Shown one piece after another: positions 3,227-46,549 of a DNA stretch of 46,910 nt. Below the pieces are notes generated by a model. The model saw only the letters and a list, made by a program, of their open reading frames with translations. It was not told where the DNA came from and ran no database searches. The DNA comes from Zetaproteobacteria bacterium CG06_land_8_20_14_3_00_59_53 (GTDB taxonomy: Bacteria > Pseudomonadota > Zetaproteobacteria > Mariprofundales > Mariprofundaceae), in the NCBI GenBank assembly GCA_002779605.1, contig PEWE01000027.1, forward strand, positions 1 through 46,910, in the 5' to 3' direction. A program made the translations under genes and the position numbers. Position 1 is the first letter of the stretch; each line of letters starts with the position of its first letter.

Positions 3227-4363
3227 ATGACATCCATATCGATCAAGGGGATAGCCCTGTGTACGGGACTGCTGTTCGCAGTGGCGGCATTTGCCCAGCC
3301 GTCGGTTGCAGATAACGACCGTGACAAAAACAAGAAAGAAGGCCATGAAACCAAGGTCATCAAGCTTGTCGGTCCCGCCGGTCCGCAGGGACCGATCGGC
3401 TTAACGGGTGCAACGGGCGCGACCGGATCAACCGGTCCGCAGGGTCCGGCTGGCCCAGCAGGCGCTGATGGTGCAACGGGACCGCAGGGGCCGATCGGCC
3501 AGACCGGTCCACAGGGTCCGGCAGGCGCTGATGGTGCAAACGGTTTGGATGGTGCGACAGGCCCACAGGGTCCGGCAGGCGTTGATGGTGCAACCGGCCC
3601 GATGGGTCCTCAGGGACAGCAAGGTCCAGTCGGTGCGACCGGCCCGATCGGCCCACAGGGTCCGGCGGGTGCTGACGGTGCTATCGGTCCGATGGGGCCA
3701 GTGGGTCCGGCAGGCGCAGATGGTGCAACCGGCGCGACCGGTGCAACCGGTGCAACCGGCCCACAGGGTCCGGCAGGTCCGCAAGGCATCCAGGGTCCTC
3801 TGGGATTGCCGGGTGCGGATGGTGCACAGGGTCCGGCAGGTCCCATGCCGGGTGTCGGTCAAAGCTGTCCGACAGGGCAGGCTGTTACCGGCTTCGATGG
3901 CAGTGGCAATCTGATTTGCGCCGCATTTATTTCTCCCATCAATCTGTCCGGCGTGGTTTCGACCTATGCCTCGGCCGGTCGCAATGTGCACATCTTCAAG
4001 ACCACACAGTGCGCCGATCTCAGTCTGCCCGAGAACCAGACCTTCTGTGAGTCGCGTGGTCTGAAGTGGTGGAAGCCGAAGGATGCCGCCGATGCACAGT
4101 TGCTGGTGACGAATGCCTATGCACTGGACAACTACCACACCTGGATTCAGGTGAACGGCGTGACCACTGCTACCGGAAATCCCGCGATCATTGACGGGTT
4201 TGCAGTAACGGTGGATTCCCCGACATGCGTTGCGGGTTCAACCGCAGGTTTTGCCGGTTTCCGCAAGTGGGGCTGCTCGCTGGGCGATCCGGAGGCCTAC
4301 GGCAACAAGAGCTGCGTCTGGGATACCAGTCATGCCTACGACTGGTTTGTCTGCGAGGAGTAA
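3227..4363 (+). CDS. Secreted collagen-like protein with cysteine-rich C-terminal domain
   Basis: A 378-residue protein with a signal peptide (about 1-30, hydrophobic core [16 protein letters not shown]), a short Lys/Asp-rich linker, then about 160 residues of Gly-X-Y repeats. The last 165 residues are globular with eight cysteines, suggesting disulfides in an exported protein. The start has a purine-rich GAGGGGA ribosome site. The domain layout (signal, collagen stalk, globular head) suggests a surface fibre, possibly for attachment or biofilm. The C-terminal domain is not one I recognise and is unlike that of the first collagen-like protein. Confidence 0.85.
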
Positions 4364-22149: not shown

Positions 22150-22664
22150 GTCAATATCAGCCGTGGGAAGAAGAAGAGTATGTTAAATATACATTGTGGT
22201 TTGTCTTTGCCTGTATAATTTACAGCATCATCGGGTTTTCCTGGGGCGCGCTGATGGGCGGCATCCATGATTTCCGCCACTTCGTTGATCATCGTATGTT
22301 CGGCAAGCTGATCGTGCGGGCCCATACCCATATCAATCTGCTGGGTTGGGTGGAAATGGCCATCTTTGCAGCCGTTTACTACATCATTCCCCGTCTGGTC
22401 CGTAAGCCGATCTACAGCCTGAAGCTGGTGAAGGTGCATTTCTGGACCCATAACTTCGGTCTGCTCGGTATGGTGGTGTTCTTCAGTACCGCAGGAACCA
22501 TCGGTGGTATGGCCAGTGTGACCATGATGCCGGCTGAGGTGGAATTGCTGGTGCGCCCGTGGCTGGCCGTGATGGGTATATTCGGAACGCTGGTGCTGCT
22601 GGCTAACTGTATCTGGGCCTACAACATCTTCCGGACCTGTGCCGGATGGCGGAAAGCACGATGA
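22146..22664 (+). CDS. Four-helix CcoN/NorB-like membrane protein
   Basis: A 172-residue protein with about four membrane helices (19-41, 60-82, 98-120, 138-160). The second carries RAHTHINLLGWVEM, matching the CcoN helix with the low-spin heme b ligand (QVHVHAVIFGWIAM in ccoN here). H98 and H102 could supply another ligand. It lacks the CuB-site helices, so it is not an oxygen reductase by itself. It may be a b-type cytochrome electron carrier for its NorC-like partner. Similar in kind to the protein at 37343-37882. Confidence 0.75.
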   Translation: MSQYQPWEEEEYVKYTLWFVFACIIYSIIGFSWGALMGGIHDFRHFVDHRMFGKLIVRAHTHINLLGWVEMAIFAAVYYIIPRLVRKPIYSLKLVKVHFWTHNFGLLGMVVFFSTAGTIGGMASVTMMPAEVELLVRPWLAVMGIFGTLVLLANCIWAYNIFRTCAGWRKAR

Positions 22665-24483: not shown

Positions 24484-25890
24484 ATGCTGAAATACTTGTT
24501 TTCAAAAGAAGATGATATCCCGCAGGGCACTGCGGCGATATTCTTTGGTGTGTCTTCCATTGCCTGGTTCATTATCGGAACCGGCCTTGGTTCATTCAAT
24601 GCTGCCAAACTCGCATTTCCTGACTTGTTCCATGGTCTGTACTCGCTGCAGTTCGGTCATGTGCGTCAGGTTCACGTTCATGCCGTGATTTTCGGCTGGA
24701 TTGCCATGGCTTTCGCTGCCTCCATGATGTACATCACCCCGGCTCTGGGTAACACCAAGTTGTGGTCCGAGAAGCTCGGCGTGTGGAACTGCATGCTGTA
24801 TAATGTGGGTCTGTGTCTTGCTCTGGCGCTGCTGTGGGCCGGTGTGACCTCGGGCCGTGAGTATTCCGACCACATCTGGCCGATTGATCTGTACATCGCC
24901 TTCGTGATGGTGGTGCCATGGTGCTTGAACGTTTGGATGACCGTGATCAACCGCCGTACTCAGGGTATCTACACCACCAACTGGTTCTTCGCTGGCTGCA
25001 TGTTCATGACAGTGATCGTGTTCCTGGTTGGTAACATGCCTGAATGGCTGCACCTGACCGGTCTGAACGAGGCATACATGACCTGGTGGTTCGCTCACAA
25101 TATTCTGGGTCTGCTGATTACCCCTGTGGCTGCTGCTATCACCTACTACATCGTTCCGAAGATCACCGGTAACCCGCTGTATTCGCATCGTGTGGGTCAT
25201 CTGCACTTCTGGTCGATCGTGGTGTTCTACTCCACACCGGCAGCCCATCATCTGATGAGTTCTCCGCTGCCGGAATGGCTGAAGTCTTTCGCATCCGTGG
25301 AAGGTGTGCTGATCCTAGTGCCGGCTGTTGCATATGTTTGCAACATCCTGCTGACCATGCAGGGTCGCTGGGCCATGTTCGTGGAAAACATCGAGATCAA
25401 GTTCACCATTACCGGTGTGCTGCTCGCCATTCCGCTGAACATGCAGGGCGGCTTCCAGCAGACGCGTGCTATCAACTGGTACATCCATGGTACCGGCTGG
25501 ATTGTGGCTCATGCTCATCTGGCGCTGCTCGGCTTCTCGACCTTTGCTGAGGCTGCTTCCGTGTACTACGGCATGCAGGTTCTGCTGCGTCGCAAGCTGT
25601 GGTCTGCATCGCTGGCTAACTTCCACTTCTGGATGCTGCTGATCGGCTTCTCCCTGTACTGGACCTCGATGACCATTTCCGGTCTGATCCAGGGCGCCGC
25701 CAAGATCTACGAGGTTCCATACGTGGACGTGGTGATCGCGGAGCATCCTTACATGATCGTACGCTGGCTGGGTGGTACCATGGTGTTCTTCGGTAACATC
25801 ATCTGGCTGTACAACATGATCATGACCGCACGTGCCGGTGACCCGGTGCCTGTCGGTCGTCAGCCGGCTGAAATCGCCTACACGCGCTGA
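24484..25890 (+). CDS. ccoN: cbb3-type cytochrome c oxidase catalytic subunit I (divergent)
   Basis: A 468-residue heme-copper oxidase subunit with 12 helices. Ligands can be placed: HVHAVIFGW (64-72, low-spin heme b), H205 (FAHNILG) and H255-H256 (AAHH) for CuB, and VAHAHLALLG (341-350) for the hemes. Tyr249 lies six residues before the HH pair, as in the cross-linked active-site Tyr of cbb3 enzymes. It therefore looks catalytically complete. The sequence is clearly divergent from classical CcoN. High-affinity O2 reduction at the inner membrane is expected. Confidence 0.93.
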   Translation: MLKYLFSKEDDIPQGTAAIFFGVSSIAWFIIGTGLGSFNAAKLAFPDLFHGLYSLQFGHVRQVHVHAVIFGWIAMAFAASMMYITPALGNTKLWSEKLGVWNCMLYNVGLCLALALLWAGVTSGREYSDHIWPIDLYIAFVMVVPWCLNVWMTVINRRTQGIYTTNWFFAGCMFMTVIVFLVGNMPEWLHLTGLNEAYMTWWFAHNILGLLITPVAAAITYYIVPKITGNPLYSHRVGHLHFWSIVVFYSTPAAHHLMSSPLPEWLKSFASVEGVLILVPAVAYVCNILLTMQGRWAMFVENIEIKFTITGVLLAIPLNMQGGFQQTRAINWYIHGTGWIVAHAHLALLGFSTFAEAASVYYGMQVLLRRKLWSASLANFHFWMLLIGFSLYWTSMTISGLIQGAAKIYEVPYVDVVIAEHPYMIVRWLGGTMVFFGNIIWLYNMIMTARAGDPVPVGRQPAEIAYTR

Positions 25891-25904
25891 TAAGCAAACT
25901 TGAA

Positions 25905-25924
25905 GGGCCGGCTACGGCCGGCCC
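25905..25924 (+). terminator. Hairpin between ccoN and ccoO
   Basis: A perfect 8-bp stem GGGCCGGC/GCCGGCCC with loop TACG is followed by CTCATTATAAATTT rather than a clean T run. It may be a partial terminator or a 3'-protecting element that sets ccoN levels above those of the other subunits. Confidence 0.5.
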
Positions 25925-25961
25925 CTCATTATAAATTTATTAATATAGGGAGGAGATTTCC

Positions 25962-26897
25962 GTGGCATTTAGAGAATATAGAATCGGATGTGTGATGTTT
26001 GGCGTGGCACTCAGCTTGTCGATGTTCATTACCATCGTGCTGCCAGGTATTGATATTTCGTCGATGTCGTCGACCAAGATCGCTCTGGAGAAACAGTTGA
26101 CCTACGGTTGGGAGACCGGTTTCAACTACTATGACCCGTTCCTGCAGGGTAAGGATAAGCCGATCAAGGTGACCCTCACCAAGGACCCGATGTCGGGTGC
26201 GGCCATCGACAAGACTGATGCATTTGTCTTTCCTGCCGGTACACATTTTCCGAACGGCCTGACCCACGACAATATCCTGGGTGATGACGTTCAGAAGGCA
26301 TCGGTCGAGGTTGGTAAGATTGATCAGGCCAATGAAGAACAGGGCGGTGTGTTCCTGGTTCGTGCAACGGCTGACGATGTTCCTTACATCGAGTACGCCA
26401 CTACCACCAAGGGCTGGACCGTCGATGCGACCCTGAAGGCTGCCGATGAGCAGTTCCTGGCAGGTTCAGGTAAAACGATGTTCGTGCGTGAAGGTTGCTG
26501 GTGGTGCCATACCCTGCTGCCTGAGCAGACCCAGGACTGGCAGTCCTTCGGTCGTCCGCCGCTGGTGGGTGACTTCAACGGAGAGAGCCCGACCACCTTC
26601 GGTTCCGACCGCAAGGCCCCGGATCTGTTGCATGTCGGTTCACGCAACTCTTCACGTGAGTGGATGGTGATGCACTTCTTCAATCCGCGTCTGGTACAGC
26701 CGCATTCGATCATGCCGCGCTACGATTATCTGTGGGGCAGTGTCGATGCAAATGGCCAGCCGATCGATCTTGCAGCATGGGATGAGGCCTATCTGGCCTA
26801 TGACAACGGTGAGTCCATCAATGCACCAGTAGTTCCGCTGCCGGCTGCAGACAGTGAAGCTCGCATGCTGATCGACTTCATCATCAATCTGAAATAA
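25962..26897 (+). CDS. ccoO: cbb3-type oxidase monoheme subunit II, enlarged
   Basis: A 311-residue subunit with an N-terminal helix (about 9-28), heme motif CWWCH (179-183), and the CcoO landmarks DRKAPDLLHVGSRNS, FFNPRLVQPHSIMPRYDYLW (likely Met ligand). Classical CcoO is about 200-245 residues with the heme near residue 70, so about 110 extra residues lie between the membrane helix and the heme. GTG start with GGGAGGAG upstream. It carries electrons from periplasmic cytochromes to CcoN. Confidence 0.9.
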   Translation: MAFREYRIGCVMFGVALSLSMFITIVLPGIDISSMSSTKIALEKQLTYGWETGFNYYDPFLQGKDKPIKVTLTKDPMSGAAIDKTDAFVFPAGTHFPNGLTHDNILGDDVQKASVEVGKIDQANEEQGGVFLVRATADDVPYIEYATTTKGWTVDATLKAADEQFLAGSGKTMFVREGCWWCHTLLPEQTQDWQSFGRPPLVGDFNGESPTTFGSDRKAPDLLHVGSRNSSREWMVMHFFNPRLVQPHSIMPRYDYLWGSVDANGQPIDLAAWDEAYLAYDNGESINAPVVPLPAADSEARMLIDFIINLK

Positions 26898-36797: not shown

Positions 36798-37346
36798 TCA
36801 GTCTTTTTTCTGTTTATCCAGACGATGCTGCAGCTTGGCACTCTTCACCCAGTGTCTGAGCAGCAGAATCTTGATGCCGCCACGCTCTTCCTTGCATCGC
36901 GGGCAGGTCAGATAGCAGAGAAACAGCTCCTTGGGCATCTTCGCCTCATCCAGCAGGGCTGATTGCATGGTCTGCACGGCCCCTCTGATGCCTCCGCCGA
37001 TATCGCCGTGTATCAGTTTGCTGCGTACATAATAAGGGTTGGCAAGGCGGAAGGTGCGTCGCGCAGGTGAGGTATCCTCACTGAGCGGGCAGAGGATACG
37101 GCCGCGGAAGGCGGCAGACTGTGTGAGCACAAAGCCCGGCCAGCGTTCGGTCAGGTGCAGGCGTTTGATGTCCTTGTGCTGGCGGTCCAGCGCTGCTTCA
37201 TAACCGATAGGCATATGCAGAAACATGGGGACACCCTGTTCATGCACCAGCCATGCACCGAGATCGATATCCTCTCCATCCCAGTCGGGAAACACGGAAG
37301 GGCATCCGCATTCCAGCATGCCCTGCAATTCGGGTTCAGCACTCAT
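36798..37346 (-). CDS. Unknown cysteine-containing protein coupled to a short CcoN-like gene
   Basis: A 182-residue soluble protein. Visible features are ECGCPSVFPDWDGEDIDLG at the N-terminus, LCYLTCPRCKEERGG near the C-terminus (CxxxxCxxC, possible metal site) and a basic tail. Its start overlaps the CcoN/NorB-like stop (ATGA). It may be a metal-binding partner of that membrane protein. No family recognised. Confidence 0.65.
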   Translation of the reverse strand: MSAEPELQGMLECGCPSVFPDWDGEDIDLGAWLVHEQGVPMFLHMPIGYEAALDRQHKDIKRLHLTERWPGFVLTQSAAFRGRILCPLSEDTSPARRTFRLANPYYVRSKLIHGDIGGGIRGAVQTMQSALLDEAKMPKELFLCYLTCPRCKEERGGIKILLLRHWVKSAKLQHRLDKQKKD

Positions 37347-37882
37347 CTGGACGGGGTTTTATATATGTCCTTCAGGGTAAGCATGACATTGGCCAGATAA
37401 ACCCAGAAGCCCACGGCGAGAATGGTGGCGGTTACCGAGATCACCGGACCGTAGAAACGGTGCACCGCAGGTACCTGTGACGGGTCAGTCAGCCACAGAT
37501 TGCCTTCGATGAATCCGAAAATAAGCAGTGCAGTGTAGAAGCAGCTGACACCGATCGCCGTCCACCAGAAGGAGTGCTCGGCCATGCGATGCGAATGGAT
37601 ATGCTTACCGGTGATCTTTGGCAGCATGTAATAGGTGACAGCCATGCCCAGGATGGTGACGCCGCCGACCAGATTGATATGGGCATGCGCCAGTGGATCG
37701 ATCATGTGGCCGGGGCCGCCATAGGGGCTGCCGATAGAGTCCAGCCATGCGCGAACGGACGGAATCACCTGTAAAAGACCGTGCACAGTACCGATGAAAA
37801 ACGAGACGACCGACATGATCAGAAATTTGACCAGATAAAGGTGTTCGTTGCGTGAATTGACGGGGTAGGCGTGTGTTGACAT
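37343..37882 (-). CDS. Five-helix CcoN/NorB-like membrane protein
   Basis: A 179-residue protein with four or five helices. The segment PLAHAHINLVGGVTILGMAVTYYMLPKITGK (63-93) matches the NorB/CcoN helix that carries a heme b ligand; HSHRMAEHSFWW (96-107) resembles the CcoN SHRVGHLHFW segment. It lacks the second half of a catalytic subunit. A stand-alone b-heme or accessory protein is likely. The start at 37882 is preceded by an 11-base element shared with the divergent gene. Confidence 0.75.
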   Translation of the reverse strand: MSTHAYPVNSRNEHLYLVKFLIMSVVSFFIGTVHGLLQVIPSVRAWLDSIGSPYGGPGHMIDPLAHAHINLVGGVTILGMAVTYYMLPKITGKHIHSHRMAEHSFWWTAIGVSCFYTALLIFGFIEGNLWLTDPSQVPAVHRFYGPVISVTATILAVGFWVYLANVMLTLKDIYKTPSR

Positions 37883-37888
37883 GCGATG

Positions 37889-37975
37889 GCAGGCTAGCGG
37901 CGGGAATCCTCTGTGCAAGAATTGTTATTGCGTTCAACAGCCTGCTGCCACGCGAGGGGAATGTCGCTAGCCTGC
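37889..37975. promoter_or_regulatory. Shared 11-base element in front of two divergent genes
   Basis: CGCTAGCCTGC lies 6 bases before the minus-strand start at 37882 and again 5 bases before the plus-strand start at 37981, making an 11-bp inverted repeat 65 bases apart. Neither gene has a normal Shine-Dalgarno sequence, so the element may be a ribosome-access or regulator site. Confidence 0.6.
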
Positions 37976-40014: not shown

Positions 40015-41433
40015 TTAATGGGGCTTTGCCACGCCATCCGGGTTGTTTGCTGTCTTTGCTTTCAGAACTACACCGCCAGCATGCAGTGCGATCGTCTCAA
40101 AGCTGTCGCTCATGGCCGCCGCATTTCTGGAGAGTGCGTGCATGCTTTCCTGATGGGGATTGAAGATCATATGGGTCAAGCCTCTGGTTTGCTTGCGGAA
40201 TACCGCGACATCTTCAGTTGCCGGTGGCAGAGGGAGGACGTCCCTGCGGCAGGCCAACAGGGTTCGCGCAGGCCACTGGCTGGCGGCCAGGAATATTTCA
40301 TCGGTGTTCCCGGCATCTCTTTCCACGACCGAGATCAATGCATCGACAGGACTCTTCATGTGTTGCTTGGAAACAAGACCGATCTGCCGCGTGTTTACCA
40401 TTGAGATAGTGGCGATGCTGAACACCATGATTAACAGAAGGCCACGCTGTCCCAACAGGCTGCGGTTACCGATGCGCTCGTTTAATTCGATAAGCAGTGG
40501 AAGTCCGAGATAAAGTGTCGTGGCCCAGCAGACCAGAGCCCAAGCATGGTCGGCATGCAGCAGGCCAATCAGGCTGGCACAGATCAGCATGATGGAGACA
40601 GGGTCATTGATCCTTCTCCACGCATGTACGGCAATGGAGAGCATTAAAAGAGCTGCGATCAGAATACCAATCCCTGTTGCGGGTTCATGTAGAAGTGGTG
40701 ATCCGAGCAGGCTGTCTCCCAGAATCGACAGTGGATTGGCGGCTGCGGCATCAATCCCGTACCAGCCCCATCGCACGAAAAGCATGAATAATGTTACAAA
40801 GGCGATACTTCCGATGATTCTGCGTGCCTGACTCATGTGCGATGTTTTTCGCAGCCAGTGAATGCTCAGTGCGAGCGGAACTGCCAGCCCCATGGGGTGC
40901 ATGCTTACTGCCATTGCTGTCACCAGTAATTGCAGGAAGAACCAACTGGGCAGCGTCTTGTCGCTATCGTGCACCATTTGATTCAGCCAGCCGATGACGA
41001 CAAAGCAGAACAACAGATACACGCCGCTGCCGATAGCATCGGTTTGCATCAGGGCAATGGGAGCGATCAACAAGAGTGCGGTTGCCATCATCGACGACTC
41101 GCCGCTGTGTACCTCGGCGCTCCATTTGTACATCATCAGAGCAGTGCCGAACAGGATATACATGGTGAACACCTTGACGGCGATCAGGCTGCCGGCCCAG
41201 TACATGTCGAGCGGTATGAAGAACACGGCGCGAAGATCCGGAACACCGAAAAATGCCACCGGGCTGGCTATCTGATGCACGATGGACCAGTTCAGCAGGA
41301 TATCCAGCGCGGCACTTTCCTCGATGCCGTAGTTGTCGTAGCGGAACATGGAAAGGAACGCCCATGCCAGAAGGCAAAGGCCGATCATGCCTAGATATCG
41401 GGGTTGAAACGCTTCCTGCAGCTTGGACATCAT
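40015..41433 (-). CDS. Polytopic membrane protein, GT-C/PMT-like glycosyltransferase
   Basis: A 472-residue protein with about ten helices. The first periplasmic loop begins FRYDNYGIEESAALDILL, with acidic residues as in GT-C enzymes (ArnT/PMT type), and the C-terminal soluble part starts near residue 370. The family is assigned only by topology and the loop. Possible transfer of sugar to lipid or protein. Confidence 0.55.
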   Translation of the reverse strand: MMSKLQEAFQPRYLGMIGLCLLAWAFLSMFRYDNYGIEESAALDILLNWSIVHQIASPVAFFGVPDLRAVFFIPLDMYWAGSLIAVKVFTMYILFGTALMMYKWSAEVHSGESSMMATALLLIAPIALMQTDAIGSGVYLLFCFVVIGWLNQMVHDSDKTLPSWFFLQLLVTAMAVSMHPMGLAVPLALSIHWLRKTSHMSQARRIIGSIAFVTLFMLFVRWGWYGIDAAAANPLSILGDSLLGSPLLHEPATGIGILIAALLMLSIAVHAWRRINDPVSIMLICASLIGLLHADHAWALVCWATTLYLGLPLLIELNERIGNRSLLGQRGLLLIMVFSIATISMVNTRQIGLVSKQHMKSPVDALISVVERDAGNTDEIFLAASQWPARTLLACRRDVLPLPPATEDVAVFRKQTRGLTHMIFNPHQESMHALSRNAAAMSDSFETIALHAGGVVLKAKTANNPDGVAKPH

Positions 41434-41659
41434 CAGTTATTCACCTTTTTACGGAATTGTTGATTGGACTGGATATCTGTGAAGTAGGCGATTGTAACGC
41501 CATGCATCATAGGGGCAATGTGCAGTGCATTCCGGTGGTTGGCTGAATGAACTTCTCCTGTCAGTCTATACTGCGACGTGAGGGTGGGGATGGCTGTAAC
41601 TTTATCACTGAACTTCATCACCGTTTAATAAATGCTTAACAAAGCCAAAAGATATAGAT

Positions 41660-41670
41660 AAGATGCATCT
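41660..41670 (+). promoter_or_regulatory. NsrR-type half site upstream of the multicopper oxidase
   Basis: AAGATGCATCT matches the E. coli NsrR half-site consensus (AAGATGCYTTT), 55 bases before the start of the ncgA-like gene. The rest of the 291-base gap (41434-41724) contains no gene; it holds divergent promoters. Confidence 0.5.
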
Positions 41671-41724
41671 AACTGTGCCATCTGTGTCCGATAAGGCTGA
41701 TGAGGCATAAATCAGGAGGTAGTA

Positions 41725-42795
41725 ATGAGAATGAGCAGAATTTTATTTGTTCCTTTGGTTGCACTTTTAACATGGCTGATGGCCGGCACGCCGGTACAGG
41801 CCCAAACACTTGAAATGAACATGACCATCGATGAAGTCGAGCTGGCTGTTGCTCCTGATCTGAAATACAAGGTGTTCGCCTTCAACGGTCAGGTTCCAGG
41901 TCCGCTTATTCATGCCAGGGAAGGCGACGATCTGGTCATCAATGTGAAGAACAATACTTCGCTGTCACATACGATTCACTGGCACGGCTTCCACCAGACC
42001 AACTCCTGGCGCATGGATGGTGTGCCGGATATCACCCAGCCGGGCATCAAGCCGGGCGAAACCTTCACCTACAAGTTCAAGGCCGATCGCCCGGGCACCC
42101 TCTGGTACCATTGCCATGTGAACGTCAACGAGCATGTCGGTATCCGCGGCATGTGGGGTCCGGCGATTATCGATCCGGCCAACCCGACCGATCTGGAGAA
42201 GAAGGTTAATCGCGAAGTGCTGATGATGTTCTCCACCTGGGAGTCGGCCAATGCCGAAAAGTACGGCACGGGTTCTACGCCATATGATGTCGAGGACTAT
42301 TTCAGTGTGAACGGGCGTTCGTTCCCTTATACCCAGCCGATCCGCCTGAAGACGGGTGATGTGGTCCGCGTCCGTGTGTTTGGTGCTGGTGGTGCTATTC
42401 ATTCGATGCATATCCACGGGCACGACTGGACGGTCACCCACAAGGACGGCTTGCCTTTGGCCTCACCGTATATGTCCGAGACCGTTTTGTTCGGGCCTGG
42501 CGAGCGCTACGACTTGATCTATAATGCCAACCACAAGGAAGGTCGCTTCATTTTCCACGACCATGTAGATAAGCATGTCACCGCACGCGGCAAGCACCCG
42601 GGTGGTCCGATTACCGTGCAGGAATATGAAGGCACGCCAATGGACGACTGGTATGTCTGGAAGAACAAGGACTTCGATCCGGATTTCTTCTACACCGAGT
42701 CAATGAAGAAGGGTTATGGCCTGTTTGAGCAGCCCAAGCTTCGCGGCACGAAGCCTGCCACGCAGGAGCGTGGTCACCGCAGCAACGCGGGCTGA
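41725..42795 (+). CDS. ncgA: Two-domain multicopper oxidase (NcgA-like)
   Basis: A 356-residue protein with signal peptide (cut VQA|QT) and two cupredoxin domains. Domain 1 has HTIHWHG (82-88) and WYHCHVNVNEHVGIRGM (127-143), giving type 1 copper ligands Cys130, His137 and Met143. Domain 2 has HSMHIHGHDW and IFHDHVDKHV, where Asp replaces the Cys, so type 1 copper is only in domain 1 (type C two-domain MCO, as in the Nitrosomonas blue copper oxidase). NirK is unlikely because its HCAP..M motif is absent. AGGAGG ribosome site. Confidence 0.82.
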   Translation: MRMSRILFVPLVALLTWLMAGTPVQAQTLEMNMTIDEVELAVAPDLKYKVFAFNGQVPGPLIHAREGDDLVINVKNNTSLSHTIHWHGFHQTNSWRMDGVPDITQPGIKPGETFTYKFKADRPGTLWYHCHVNVNEHVGIRGMWGPAIIDPANPTDLEKKVNREVLMMFSTWESANAEKYGTGSTPYDVEDYFSVNGRSFPYTQPIRLKTGDVVRVRVFGAGGAIHSMHIHGHDWTVTHKDGLPLASPYMSETVLFGPGERYDLIYNANHKEGRFIFHDHVDKHVTARGKHPGGPITVQEYEGTPMDDWYVWKNKDFDPDFFYTESMKKGYGLFEQPKLRGTKPATQERGHRSNAG

Positions 42796-42797
42796 AG

Positions 42798-43535
42798 ATG
42801 AAACGGTTTCTTTTACTCGCTGCTATTGTCGCCTTTGTGACCCCTGCACCGGCCGGTGCAGGGGAAGCAGGCACAAAGATTTTGCAGAATCGTTGTGCTT
42901 CATGTCATAACCTGACGGGTCCGTCTCCGCAGACGATTCGGGAATTGTGGAAGCGCGATGCCCCGGATCTGTTCTATGCCGGGAATAAATTCCAACGCGA
43001 ATGGCTGGTGGAATGGTTGCAGAAGCCGGTTCGTATCCGTCCGGCGGGTGTCAATTATCTGCGTACGATCAATTCTGCTCCCGCTCCCAAGGAAGGCGAG
43101 AAGCAGAAGGAATACGATGTGCTCTATGGCCCGGTTCTCAGGCCTCTGCAGCACCTTACGTTGAAGCCGGCGGAGGCTGAAGAGACAGCGGATGCCCTGA
43201 TGGATCTGAAAGCCGGAGATAGTTTTCTCGCGGGTATGATGCTGGATAATAGCAAGCAGGTGAGTCTTGAAGAAGGCGAAGTGCTTTTCGACAAGGTTTA
43301 CGGATGCTTGTCCTGCCATCAGATCGAGCCGAACTACGGCGGTTTTACCGGACCGGAGGTCTATACCGCCGGTCGCAGGCTGACACCGGAATTTATGCTC
43401 AGCTACATCACTCGTCCCAAGAACTGGGATTCGAAAATCTGGATGCCCAACGGTAATGTGAAGCCGGCGGATCTTCAGAAGATCGTCAATTACCTTATTT
43501 TGCTTTCAAAGGAGAACTTCAATGCAGCCAATTAA
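42798..43535 (+). CDS. ncgB: Diheme cytochrome c (NcgB-like)
   Basis: A 245-residue protein with signal peptide (cut AGA|GE) and heme sites CASCH (33-37) and CLSCH (about 172-176). A central region holds PVRIRPAGVNYLRT. It follows the multicopper oxidase by 2 bases and overlaps the next cytochrome by 14 bases. The gene order multicopper oxidase, diheme c, monoheme c is that of ncgABC next to nirK in Nitrosomonas. The assignment is mainly by this order. Confidence 0.75.
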   Translation: MKRFLLLAAIVAFVTPAPAGAGEAGTKILQNRCASCHNLTGPSPQTIRELWKRDAPDLFYAGNKFQREWLVEWLQKPVRIRPAGVNYLRTINSAPAPKEGEKQKEYDVLYGPVLRPLQHLTLKPAEAEETADALMDLKAGDSFLAGMMLDNSKQVSLEEGEVLFDKVYGCLSCHQIEPNYGGFTGPEVYTAGRRLTPEFMLSYITRPKNWDSKIWMPNGNVKPADLQKIVNYLILLSKENFNAAN

Positions 43536-43899
43536 GATTCTTTTTGCTATTGCCGCACTGATGTTTGTCGTAGCACCTGCTGCGATGGCCGAAGAGGCAT
43601 TCCTGAACTACAAGAGCTACTGCATGCAGTGTCATGGCATGCACGGCAAAGGTGATGGTGTGAATGTTCCGGCAATGAATGTGCGCCCGCGCGACCATAG
43701 TGATAATAATTACATGATGACGCGTACCAACTCCGAGATCTTCAAAGCCATTAAATTCGGTGGTCAGGCAGTGAATAAGTCGGTGAAAATGCCGGCATGG
43801 AGTGATACGTTCACCGATGATGAAATCACTCAGATGGTGGGACATATCCGTACGCTCTGCTGCGAAAAAGAAATCATTCGCGGTGTGAATTTCAAGTAA
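43522..43899 (+). CDS. ncgC: Monoheme cytochrome c (NcgC-like)
   Basis: A 125-residue periplasmic cytochrome with signal peptide (cut AMA|EE) and one heme site CMQCH (34-38), followed by GMHGKGDG and the likely Met ligand in VKMPAWSD. The C-terminus has a CC pair. It is the third gene of the ncgABC-like operon; no nirK follows. Confidence 0.82.
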   Translation: MQPIKILFAIAALMFVVAPAAMAEEAFLNYKSYCMQCHGMHGKGDGVNVPAMNVRPRDHSDNNYMMTRTNSEIFKAIKFGGQAVNKSVKMPAWSDTFTDDEITQMVGHIRTLCCEKEIIRGVNFK

Positions 43900-44042: not shown

Positions 44043-44504
44043 CTAGATAGCAACTCGTTTCTGCTCGCTTTTGACTTCAAAGATACGGATGATGTCGGCT
44101 GACCGGTTGCCGATGGCATCGGCAAGCGTGTGCTGATCCAGTACATCCATGAATGCTTTGCGTGCCTGATGTCGCGTTCGTTTCAGGCTGCATGCAGGGC
44201 TGATGACACATTTATCATTCGGATTATCGAAACATTCCAGAAGATTCATATGCGGTTCGGTCTGGCGGATGATTGTGCCGATATTGATCTGATGCGGCGG
44301 GAATGCCAGATGCATGCCGCCGCTTTTCCCCCGGATCGTGGTAATCCATCCATTGCTGGAAAGCTGATGTACCACCTTCACCAGATGATTGCGTGAGATG
44401 TCGTAGGCTTCCGAAATCTCGCTGATGGTGGTGCGACGATCCTGATTGAGGCCCAGATAAATGAGCACCCGCAAGGAATAATCGGTGTATTGCGTCAGTT
44501 GCAT
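44043..44504 (-). CDS. nsrR: NsrR, Rrf2-family NO-sensing repressor
   Basis: A 153-residue protein opening MQLTQYTDYSLRVLIYL, as in E. coli NsrR, with helix-turn-helix SRNHLVKVVHQLSSNGWI, wing RGKSGGMHL, and three cluster cysteines at 91, 99 and 105 (LECFDNPNDKCVISPAC). These bind a NO-sensitive Fe-S cluster. The start at 44504 begins the conserved region; an ATG 15 bases earlier is also possible. It is divergent from the haemoglobin genes and close to the ncgABC-like operon. Confidence 0.9.
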   Translation of the reverse strand: MQLTQYTDYSLRVLIYLGLNQDRRTTISEISEAYDISRNHLVKVVHQLSSNGWITTIRGKSGGMHLAFPPHQINIGTIIRQTEPHMNLLECFDNPNDKCVISPACSLKRTRHQARKAFMDVLDQHTLADAIGNRSADIIRIFEVKSEQKRVAI

Positions 44505-44568
44505 GAACAAATCATACATTGGGTTGACATCTTTTGTCCAGCAGGGCTATTCTCCGCCTTCATGGTAA

Positions 44569-44587: not shown

Positions 44588-44604
44588 AAACGATGGAGGG
44601 TGGT

Positions 44605-44970
44605 ATGAGCACAGTTTATGAGCAGTTGGGCGGAGAGGCCGCGATTAACGCAGCCGTTGATGTTTTCTATCGCAAGGTGCTGGGTGACCATTATGTGAAC
44701 CGATTCTTTGCCGGCGTGGACATGTCCAAGCAGGCCGCCAAGCAGAAGGGTTTTCTCACCATGGTGACCGGCGGGCCGAATAACTATACAGGCAAAGACA
44801 TGCGCGAAGGCCACAAGCATCTGGTGAAAATGGGTCTGAACGATGCGCATTTCGATCATATTCTCTGCCATCTGCGTTCCACGCTGGCCGAGTTGGGTGT
44901 CGCCCAGGGTTTGATTGATACGGTTATCAGCGTTGCCGAGAGCACCCGCGCTGACGTACTGGATCGCTGA
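44605..44970 (+). CDS. glbN: Group 1 truncated haemoglobin
   Basis: A 121-residue protein with the family opening MSTVYEQLGG, B10 Tyr (F21-Y22), and proximal His70 in MREGHKHLVKMGL, the same number as in Synechocystis GlbN. Where GlbN has a distal His46, Lys is present, so the haem iron is probably open to ligands. NO dioxygenation or NO reduction is likely, given the NsrR box. GGAGGG ribosome site. Confidence 0.92.
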   Translation: MSTVYEQLGGEAAINAAVDVFYRKVLGDHYVNRFFAGVDMSKQAAKQKGFLTMVTGGPNNYTGKDMREGHKHLVKMGLNDAHFDHILCHLRSTLAELGVAQGLIDTVISVAESTRADVLDR

Positions 44971-45469: not shown

Positions 45470-45502
45470 AACTGTTTCATAGCTTGACCATGATTGTCGG
45501 AG

Positions 45503-45577: not shown

Positions 45578-46549
45578 ATGCCCACGATCACCTTTGAAGG
45601 AAAGGACTTTTTCTGTGCGGATGATGAAACAGTACTGGAATGCATGACCCGTCACGGGGTGCTGCTTCCGTCATCCTGCCAGAGTGGGGCATGCCAGACT
45701 TGCATGATCCGCGCTGTTGAAGGGACACCGCCCCCTGAGTCGCAGAATGGTTTGAAGGATACACTCAAGGCACAGAACTATTTTCTTGCCTGTGTCTGTA
45801 AGCCTTCCGGTGATATGAGTATCGGCCTGTCCACGGTATCGCCGCGATACAAGATTGCGCTGCTGCATAAGGAGCTTCTCAATGAAAGCGTGGTGCGCCT
45901 GCGCCTGGAACGACCGGCGGGCTTTTACTATCGGGCAGGCCAGTTCATCAATCTTCTGCGTCCTTCGGACGAGTTGACGCGCAGTTATTCACTGGCCAGC
46001 ACCGCGGACGAGGATTTTCTAGAGCTGCATGTCAAAAGGGTGCCTGAAGGCAAGATGAGCAACTGGGTGTTTGACGGCTTGCAGGTCGGTGACGAGGTGG
46101 TGTTTTTCGGACCGGCGGGGGACTGTTTTTACGTTCCGGGAAAACCCGAGCAACCGCTGTTGCTGGTGGGCACCGGTACCGGGCTTGCCCCGCTGTACGG
46201 TATTCTGCGCGATGTGCTGAATTATGGTCATCTCGGCCCGGTACATCTGTTGCATGCAAGTCTTGCTGCCCCCGGCCTGTACCTTGAGCCGGAGCTGCGC
46301 GCTCTTGATGCCCGGAATGACAACCTTTCCTACATACCCTGCGTCCTGCACGGGGACGCACCAGAGGGCGGCATACAGGGTAATATCGCCAATATCCCCT
46401 CGCAGCTATTGGGCACGCTGAAGGGCTACCGGGTGTTTCTGTGCGGTGATCCGCCGATCGTGAATGCCCTGCGCCAGAATGTGTTTCTGGCCGGCACCTC
46501 GATGCAGGATATCTTCTCCGATCCGTTCGTGTTTTCACCACACGACTGA
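45578..46549 (+). CDS. [2Fe-2S] ferredoxin-FAD/NAD(P)H reductase
   Basis: A 323-residue protein. Plant-type [2Fe-2S] domain at the N-terminus (C34, C39, C42, C72), then an FNR-like domain with RSYSLAS (FAD), GTGTGLAPLYG (NAD) and CGDPP. Domain order is that of phenol hydroxylase/CDP-deoxyglucose reductase-type enzymes. As the nearest reductase it is a candidate electron donor to the two haemoglobins, though a terminator separates it from them. The start is the ATG at 45578 with GGGAGC upstream. Confidence 0.88.
   Translation: MPTITFEGKDFFCADDETVLECMTRHGVLLPSSCQSGACQTCMIRAVEGTPPPESQNGLKDTLKAQNYFLACVCKPSGDMSIGLSTVSPRYKIALLHKELLNESVVRLRLERPAGFYYRAGQFINLLRPSDELTRSYSLASTADEDFLELHVKRVPEGKMSNWVFDGLQVGDEVVFFGPAGDCFYVPGKPEQPLLLVGTGTGLAPLYGILRDVLNYGHLGPVHLLHASLAAPGLYLEPELRALDARNDNLSYIPCVLHGDAPEGGIQGNIANIPSQLLGTLKGYRVFLCGDPPIVNALRQNVFLAGTSMQDIFSDPFVFSPHD

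Follow-up and report, generated by a model that had tools for sequence, protein, structure and literature searches.

What could be the function of an ncgABC operon in an organism which has no nirK? In Nitrosomonas europaea the genes form an ncgABC-nirK operon (NE0924-0927; PMC10781756, PMC4940428). According to the passages available on it, the presence of nirK reduces fitness in the absence of ncgABC (PMC5080386; the mutant result is taken from citing papers), NO scavenging has been proposed (PMC10781756), and the role of ncgABC was described in a paper of 2020 as not fully elucidated (PMC6967387). In that organism the function of ncgABC is entangled with NirK; genomes which contain the trio and no nirK separate the two naturally, and a NirK-independent function should therefore be directly assayable. 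The stretch analysed here (46,910 nucleotides, called the window) is an entire contig (C28) of such a genome, which has a size of 2.37 Mb, is 99.95% complete and has its relatives in the Zetaproteobacteria. The reading to be developed below is that the operon may have outlived its nirK and may serve a microaerobic zetaproteobacterium as a module against nitric-oxide stress; as a whole we give it an even chance. A role of the trio in NO or nitrosative stress, taken by itself, appears probable. The features on which the argument is based are as follows.

24484-26897, plus strand: divergent cbb3-type CcoN/CcoO-like pair (TIGR00780 243 bits, TIGR00781 70 bits, both below cut-off)
41434-41590: presumed site of the lost ncgB2-ncgC2-nirK block, between a membrane protein gene (40015-41433, minus strand) and the ncgA promoter
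41649-41671, plus strand: predicted NsrR-type operator, AAGATATAGATAAGATGCATCTA, 53 nt upstream of the ncgA start codon
41725-42795, plus strand: ncgA-type two-domain multicopper oxidase (MCO), type C; 356 aa; PF07732/PF07731/PF00394
42798-43535, plus strand: ncgB-type diheme cytochrome c; 245 aa; two CXXCH; C-terminal Cytochrom_C/CBB3 Pfam
43522-43899, plus strand: ncgC-type monoheme cytochrome c; 125 aa; one CXXCH; Pfam CBB3
44043-44519, minus strand: Rrf2-family regulator, probably NsrR; transcribed towards ncgC and away from the globins
44593-44970, plus strand: truncated haemoglobin 1; PF01152
44978-45469 (start may be 44915), plus strand: truncated haemoglobin 2, with N-terminal hydrophobic segment; PF01152
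45578-46549, plus strand: 2Fe-2S/FAD/NAD oxidoreductase, probable globin partner; PF00111, PF00970, PF00175

The genes thus follow each other in the order ncgA, ncgB, ncgC, nsrR (minus strand), two truncated haemoglobins and the reductase. Only 2 nt separate the ncgA stop from the ncgB start, and ncgB and ncgC overlap by 14 nt. The CXXCH counts (two and one) agree with the diheme and the monoheme cytochrome c which the first-pass annotation had placed beside the oxidase. The reading frame of the reductase opens at 45494; its start was set at 45578 by comparison with locus L014, and its relatives begin with MPTITF or MPTIHF.

The closest solved protein to NcgA is 2zwn, a two-domain laccase (533 bits) and hence a relative that reduces O2; next comes the MCO 3g5w (376 bits), which has the same ligand set and architecture and lies on a long branch. 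We take 2zwn to be mgLAC, of metagenome origin and studied as a laccase, and 3g5w is presumably a two-domain MCO from N. europaea. 2zwn falls inside the NcgA tree and shares fold family and ligand set with the NcgA of the window. Thirteen candidate copper-site residues (H82, H85, H87, H129, C130, H131, H137 and M143 in domain 1; H229, H231, H233, H278 and H280 in domain 2) are shared by 82 of 82 aligned relatives, both structures among them; the roles of such His, Cys and Met residues in type 1 and trinuclear copper sites are known from the MCO literature. Since the sole conserved Cys of the 82-row alignment is located in domain 1, type 1 copper should be confined to that domain, as had been claimed before; at the sequence level NcgA therefore has the features of a type C two-domain MCO (two cupredoxin domains, type 1 site in domain 1), with a complete set of trinuclear-site His contributed by both domains. 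This complete set, which distinguishes NcgA from NirK, is the reason why NcgA should reduce O2 rather than nitrite. NirKs of relatives have HCG or HCA, the second His being lost, where NcgA keeps the pair in HCH.

Known MCO families with other substrates were considered as candidates and rejected. NirK structures matched NcgA with at most 121 bits and the NirK model TIGR02376 with 75-78 bits (cut-off 296), which together with the HCH pair speaks against a copper nitrite reductase. No family model for CopA/PcoA, CueO or ferroxidase-type MCOs reached its cut-off; the scores were 134 of 479 bits for CopA and 61 of 525 bits for CueO.

An NcgA tree of 82 rows was constructed, from which L014 (lying on the genome stretch already represented by L020), L016 and L017 (parts of a single gene found on two contigs), and L060 and L062 (both cut) had been dropped. 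The NcgA of the window belongs to a zetaproteobacterial clade of 21 (support 100), and the oxidase groups with MCOs heading ncgABC-nirK operons, not with unrelated laccases or ferroxidases, so that the earlier identification as an ncgABC-type operon is borne out. When loci with nirK or with at least 3.2 kb of downstream sequence were counted, nirK followed directly behind ncgC in 46 of 47 loci outside the class, nitrite oxidisers included (L039, a zetaproteobacterial locus outside both clades with nirK behind ncgC, is counted among the 47; the sole exception, L080, has nirK nearby on the other strand). The corresponding values were 2 of 5 in a second zetaproteobacterial clade and 0 of 17 in the clade of the window. 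These data bear also on the proposal that NcgA is a periplasmic ferroxidase or an oxidase handling Cu(I) or other metals, with the cytochromes carrying electrons from Fe(II) or Cu(I) inwards. A laccase-like MCO with cytochromes in a class of iron oxidisers would suit it, and MCOs have been proposed for Fe(II) oxidation there, but those are of the PcoA and OmpB/MofA types in the part of the source available (PMC5566968). Considering the low CopA and CueO scores, the nirK neighbourhood of the outside relatives, the absence of ncgA from 46 of 78 genomes of the class and the NsrR-type site upstream, we regard this proposal as unlikely; the copper or iron handling which the first-pass annotation had suggested found no support.

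The nirK gene is absent not only from the locus, as had been noted, but from the whole genome: a profile search with TIGR02376 returned only NcgA itself (75 bits). That this search works is evident from 20 of the 78 genomes surveyed in the class, in which it recovered real NirKs (121-490 bits). Because nirK is neither adjacent nor present anywhere in the genome, the locus is, by its predicted gene content, a nirK-free variant of ncgABC and not a nirK cluster itself. The suggested check for norCB gave a similar picture, since a cNorB query found no match in the genome of the window; cNorB is present in the nearest relative (82%). PF00115 matched four places in this genome, which are a true CcoN, a divergent CcoN-like protein and two short partial proteins. 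A hidden cNOR was rejected as an explanation for them, since the divergent protein keeps the Tyr of helix VII and the other places are true CcoN or partial. The true CcoN is encoded on contig C17; the CcoN-like protein (window 24484-25890) scored 243 of 583 bits with the ccoN model and is located next to a CcoO-like protein, and the two short proteins (22209-22589 and 37343-37918) match only the C-terminal third of PF00115 (positions 309-435).

How nirK was lost can be followed among the congeners, 3 of 3 of which carry the block ncgB2-ncgC2-nirK beside ncgA. In L072 the order is membrane protein gene (minus strand), ncgB2, ncgC2, nirK, nirK, ncgA, ncgB, ncgC, nsrR (minus strand), globins and reductase; L016 and L020 have the same block next to ncgA (with one extra gene between nirK and ncgA in L016), and in genome G002 (locus L015) the block is oriented divergently to ncgABC. 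The window and L022 have no such block between ncgA and the membrane protein gene, and about 130 nt upstream of the window's ncgA align with the nirK-ncgA gap of L020. At this place L021 has an open deletion chimera, in which ~130 N-terminal residues of NcgB2 are joined to ~60 C-terminal residues of NirK; since L021 comes from a metagenome assembly, the chimera should be viewed with caution. The simplest reading would be that one deletion took out nirK together with its own pair of cytochromes. One ncgB homologue is left, and no second ncgB was found in a search of the whole genome. Another sign of nirK loss is a remnant with stop codons in a relative which keeps ncgA (G101:C35:40613-40878).

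One could ask if the remaining trio is a mere relic, i.e., a leftover of the nirK operon which is under loss and has no present function; nirK, ncgB2 and ncgC2 were deleted right beside it, and the state of nirK varies among near relatives. The pN/pS values in comparison to L020 (ncgA 0.116, ncgB 0.175, ncgC 0.075) show that all three genes are retained under purifying selection, which contradicts a relic. The invariant ligands, the retained operator and a whole subgroup without nirK behind the trio, in which ncgB and ncgC became fused, argue in the same direction, and we consider a relic very improbable. The trio remained intact beside genes for coping with NO after the loss of nirK, and therefore probably has a job of its own.

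A survey of the class extended these findings. With a threshold of at least 55% identity and at least 170 bits, ncgA was called in 32 of 78 genomes; 16 of these contain nirK as well and 16 do not, and nirK without ncgA occurs in 4 (Fisher p 5.7e-5). Of the 16 nirK-free genomes, G095 contains a nirK-like fragment at the edge of a contig, and G101 the stop-ridden remnant. When only genomes of at least 90% completeness and at most 5% contamination were considered, nirK was missing in 7 of 16 genomes with ncgA. Isolates such as Mariprofundus erugo P3 also keep ncgABC without nirK. Genome-wide searches in the clade of 21 detected some nirK in 7 members (L020, L022, L024, L027, L036, L037, L058) and no complete nirK in 14; L035, one of the latter, is ambiguous and was excluded from the state count, since a nirK-like fragment lies there where a contig ends. 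The state of nirK differs among near relatives and changed at least 5-6 times on the NcgA tree, with outside rows coded as present by neighbourhood; the genome-wide search covered 33 of 80 named loci plus G000-G003, and for the other 47 loci the call was made from the gene neighbourhood alone. Since 16 nirK-free genomes retain the trio, and since it appears re-wired in its clade, with nsrR, truncated haemoglobins and reductase, or a cbb3-type oxidase cluster as partners, the conclusion that its job no longer depends on NirK is well supported. The earlier suggestion that the trio may work alone is backed by the same links and by the loss of nirK in half of the genomes with ncgA.

A connection to nitrite remains, since ncgA and nirK co-occur above chance over the class, 16 of 20 genomes with nirK having ncgA. 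Nitrite could still be the substrate if the trio served an unrecognised nitrite reductase or were one itself; a query for nirS (PF02239) returned nothing from the 78 genomes, as did the control query, so that absence of nirS is not inferable from it. Against such a role stand the O2-reducing trinuclear His set of NcgA, its HCH in the place of the HCG or HCA of NirK, and the fact that ncgB2, which belongs to the pair staying with nirK, was lost together with it. Nitrite reduction by the trio, which had been envisaged at first, is thus not supported, and a nitrite substrate in this wider sense seems to us improbable.

The Rrf2 regulator fits NsrR best: it scored 143 bits with the NsrR model PRK11014 (below the cut-off of 182), 114 with RirA and 50 with IscR, its best solved match is NsrR (5n07), and it has three Cys in the spacing C-x7-C-x5-C. 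The presence of nsrR and haemoglobins near the trio, as noted in the first-pass annotation, therefore holds with the reservation of the model cut-off. A "half site" for NsrR had also been reported; a site upstream of ncgA does exist, but it is a full dyad of 23 bp (41649-41671) with 17 of 18 conserved positions, which 0 of 100 mononucleotide shuffles equalled. It matches the published NsrR consensus gATGyAT-N5-ATrCATc (given in the available part of PMC1274295) in 12 of 14 positions, and the 2.37 Mb genome contains its core pattern only 4 times, two of the other three copies being inside ORFs and one perhaps intergenic. Strong NsrR-type sites, defined as being matched by at most 1 of 100 shuffles, precede ncgA in 13 of 21 members of the clade. 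The 8 members without a strong site are five with ncgA behind the reductase gene (fre), where sites between nsrR and the globins are mostly weak, plus L023, L034 and L058; in L023 (M. erugo) and L058 no nsrR was found near the trio within the flank examined. A weaker second site lies between nsrR and glb1 in the window (14 of 18 positions; 2 of 200 shuffles as good) and is not conserved in L020, L022 or L072. From the predicted operator and the presence of the regulator gene, NsrR is a putative regulator of ncgABC.

The association with globins can be more intimate than in the window. In L026, L027, L030, L035 and L036 the order is nsrR, followed by glb-glb-fre-ncgA-ncgBC in divergent orientation (one glb was detected in L026), with only 22-54 nt between fre and ncgA, and in these five loci the globin-reductase run and ncgA likely form one operon. 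As proof of function this link has limited weight: the reductase occurs in 28 of 32 genomes with ncgA and in 27 of 46 without it (78 genomes of the class), and since it is common also without ncgA, the link is in part shared synteny. The best solved matches of truncated haemoglobin 2 are group 1 truncated haemoglobins and cyanoglobin, by which the pair is assigned to group 1. In four other zetaproteobacterial loci (L023, L058, L075, L076) ncgABC is located directly before a cbb3-type CcoN/CcoO-like cluster, whose homologues in the window are found at 24484-26897.

The cytochromes of the window differ from those accompanying nirK. Its NcgB belongs to a paralogue clade distinct from the nirK-linked NcgB2, and its NcgC to a clade of its own (12 members, support 100). 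NcgB and NcgC are one triheme frame in 14 of 14 zetaproteobacterial loci L025-L038, which belong to the NcgA clade of the window and have no nirK behind them (337-360 aa, e.g., L025:10220-11248; 13 loci were flagged, and L035 was added because of a frame of 323 aa with three CXXCH); the remaining loci showed no fusion. This consistent fusion suggests that the two cytochromes act as a single unit with NcgA. At the usual place of nirK behind ncgBC, 12 loci encode a protein of 241-257 aa without Pfam family (e.g., L036:12246-13019), with a hydrophobic helix at the N- and the C-terminus; its model (pLDDT 78) resembles the E. coli lipoprotein YceB and, weakly, lipid-binding BPI-type folds, and the YceB-like fold gives no clue to the role of the oxidase. 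Between the window on the one side and L015 and L016/L017 on the other, all of one genus, the oxidases at this locus derive from two distant NcgA clades (57-63% identical). The adjacent ncgB and ncgC remain orthologous (69-76%), which looks like an exchange of the oxidase only.

The following sequence of events could be envisaged. NO, either external or formed when nitrite reacts with Fe(II), would relieve NsrR, and NcgA, NcgB and NcgC would be produced as periplasmic proteins. The cytochrome c pool might then deliver electrons via NcgB/NcgC to the type 1 copper of NcgA, from where they would reach the trinuclear site and reduce O2, a direction which we propose tentatively, with somewhat less than an even chance. 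NcgABC would provide an electron outlet still running while NO blocks the haem oxidases, NO could possibly be oxidised along this route, and the cytoplasmic globin-reductase set would convert NO to nitrate. In iron oxidisers, haems are attacked by nitrite and NO, which also react with Fe(II) (PMC10734462, available passages). In its most explicit form, which is speculative and rather unlikely, NcgABC would be a periplasmic copper "alternative oxidase", i.e., an NO-tolerant multicopper cytochrome c:O2 oxidoreductase induced via NsrR, freed from nirK in the Zetaproteobacteria and condensed there to NcgA plus a fused triheme NcgBC; if true, it would sustain respiration when NO blocks cbb3 oxidases. 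NsrR regulons include an alternative oxidase in Vibrio fischeri and a glbN-reductase pair in Legionella, according to the part of PMC1274295 at hand, and such passages on ncgABC, NO and NsrR regulons are the reason for favouring an NO-stress module with an O2-reducing NcgA.

The main rival assigns to NcgA the oxidation of NO itself to nitrite in the periplasm, with electrons going to O2 or via NcgB/NcgC to the respiratory chain; the trio would be a direct sink for NO, with NirK only one of its sources. The harm done by nirK without ncgABC in N. europaea (PMC5080386) and the scavenging already proposed (PMC10781756), both as given in the passages available, agree with this, as do the NsrR-type operator and the retention of the trio where nirK and cNorB are missing. 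No NO-binding feature is readable in NcgA, its nearest solved relative was deposited as a laccase, and two or three haems would be superfluous if O2 were the acceptor; we therefore consider NO oxidation possible, but doubtful. Sequence alone does not distinguish it from the O2 outlet, which we prefer.

Among known systems, the operon of N. europaea shares with the window the three genes and their order, the NcgA-type MCO with cytochromes c, a nearby nsrR and NsrR control, which is only predicted in the window; the window differs in the lack of nirK from operon and genome, in its B and C cytochromes from a separate paralogue clade, and in the adjoining haemoglobins and reductase. A zetaproteobacterial contig from Loihi contains the same gene families, namely nirK, NcgB, NcgC and two NcgA-like MCOs, for which a role in detoxification was considered; unlike the window it has nirK, and an uncoupling from nirK is not described in the available part of that paper (PMC3603346). 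The NsrR target glbN-ferredoxin reductase of Legionella, read as an NO-oxidising pair, resembles the window in having a cyanoglobin-type globin and a reductase next to NsrR, and differs by having no MCO or cytochromes (PMC1274295, same passages). As far as these sources extend, ncgABC and its connection with NsrR are already known, as are nirK-ncg clusters of Zetaproteobacteria (PMC3603346). The accessible passages of the open-licence literature contained no mention of a nirK-free ncgABC, of an NcgB-NcgC fusion or of a joint operon with haemoglobins, nothing which joins MCO, truncated haemoglobin and NsrR, and nothing on type C MCOs. With the triheme fusion and the operon shared with globins and reductase, the guess about ncgABC would narrow to NO stress and to electron flow in iron oxidisers living under microaerobic conditions.

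Apart from the genes discussed here, the window encodes collagen-like proteins with GXX repeats at 1-1361 and 3227-4363.
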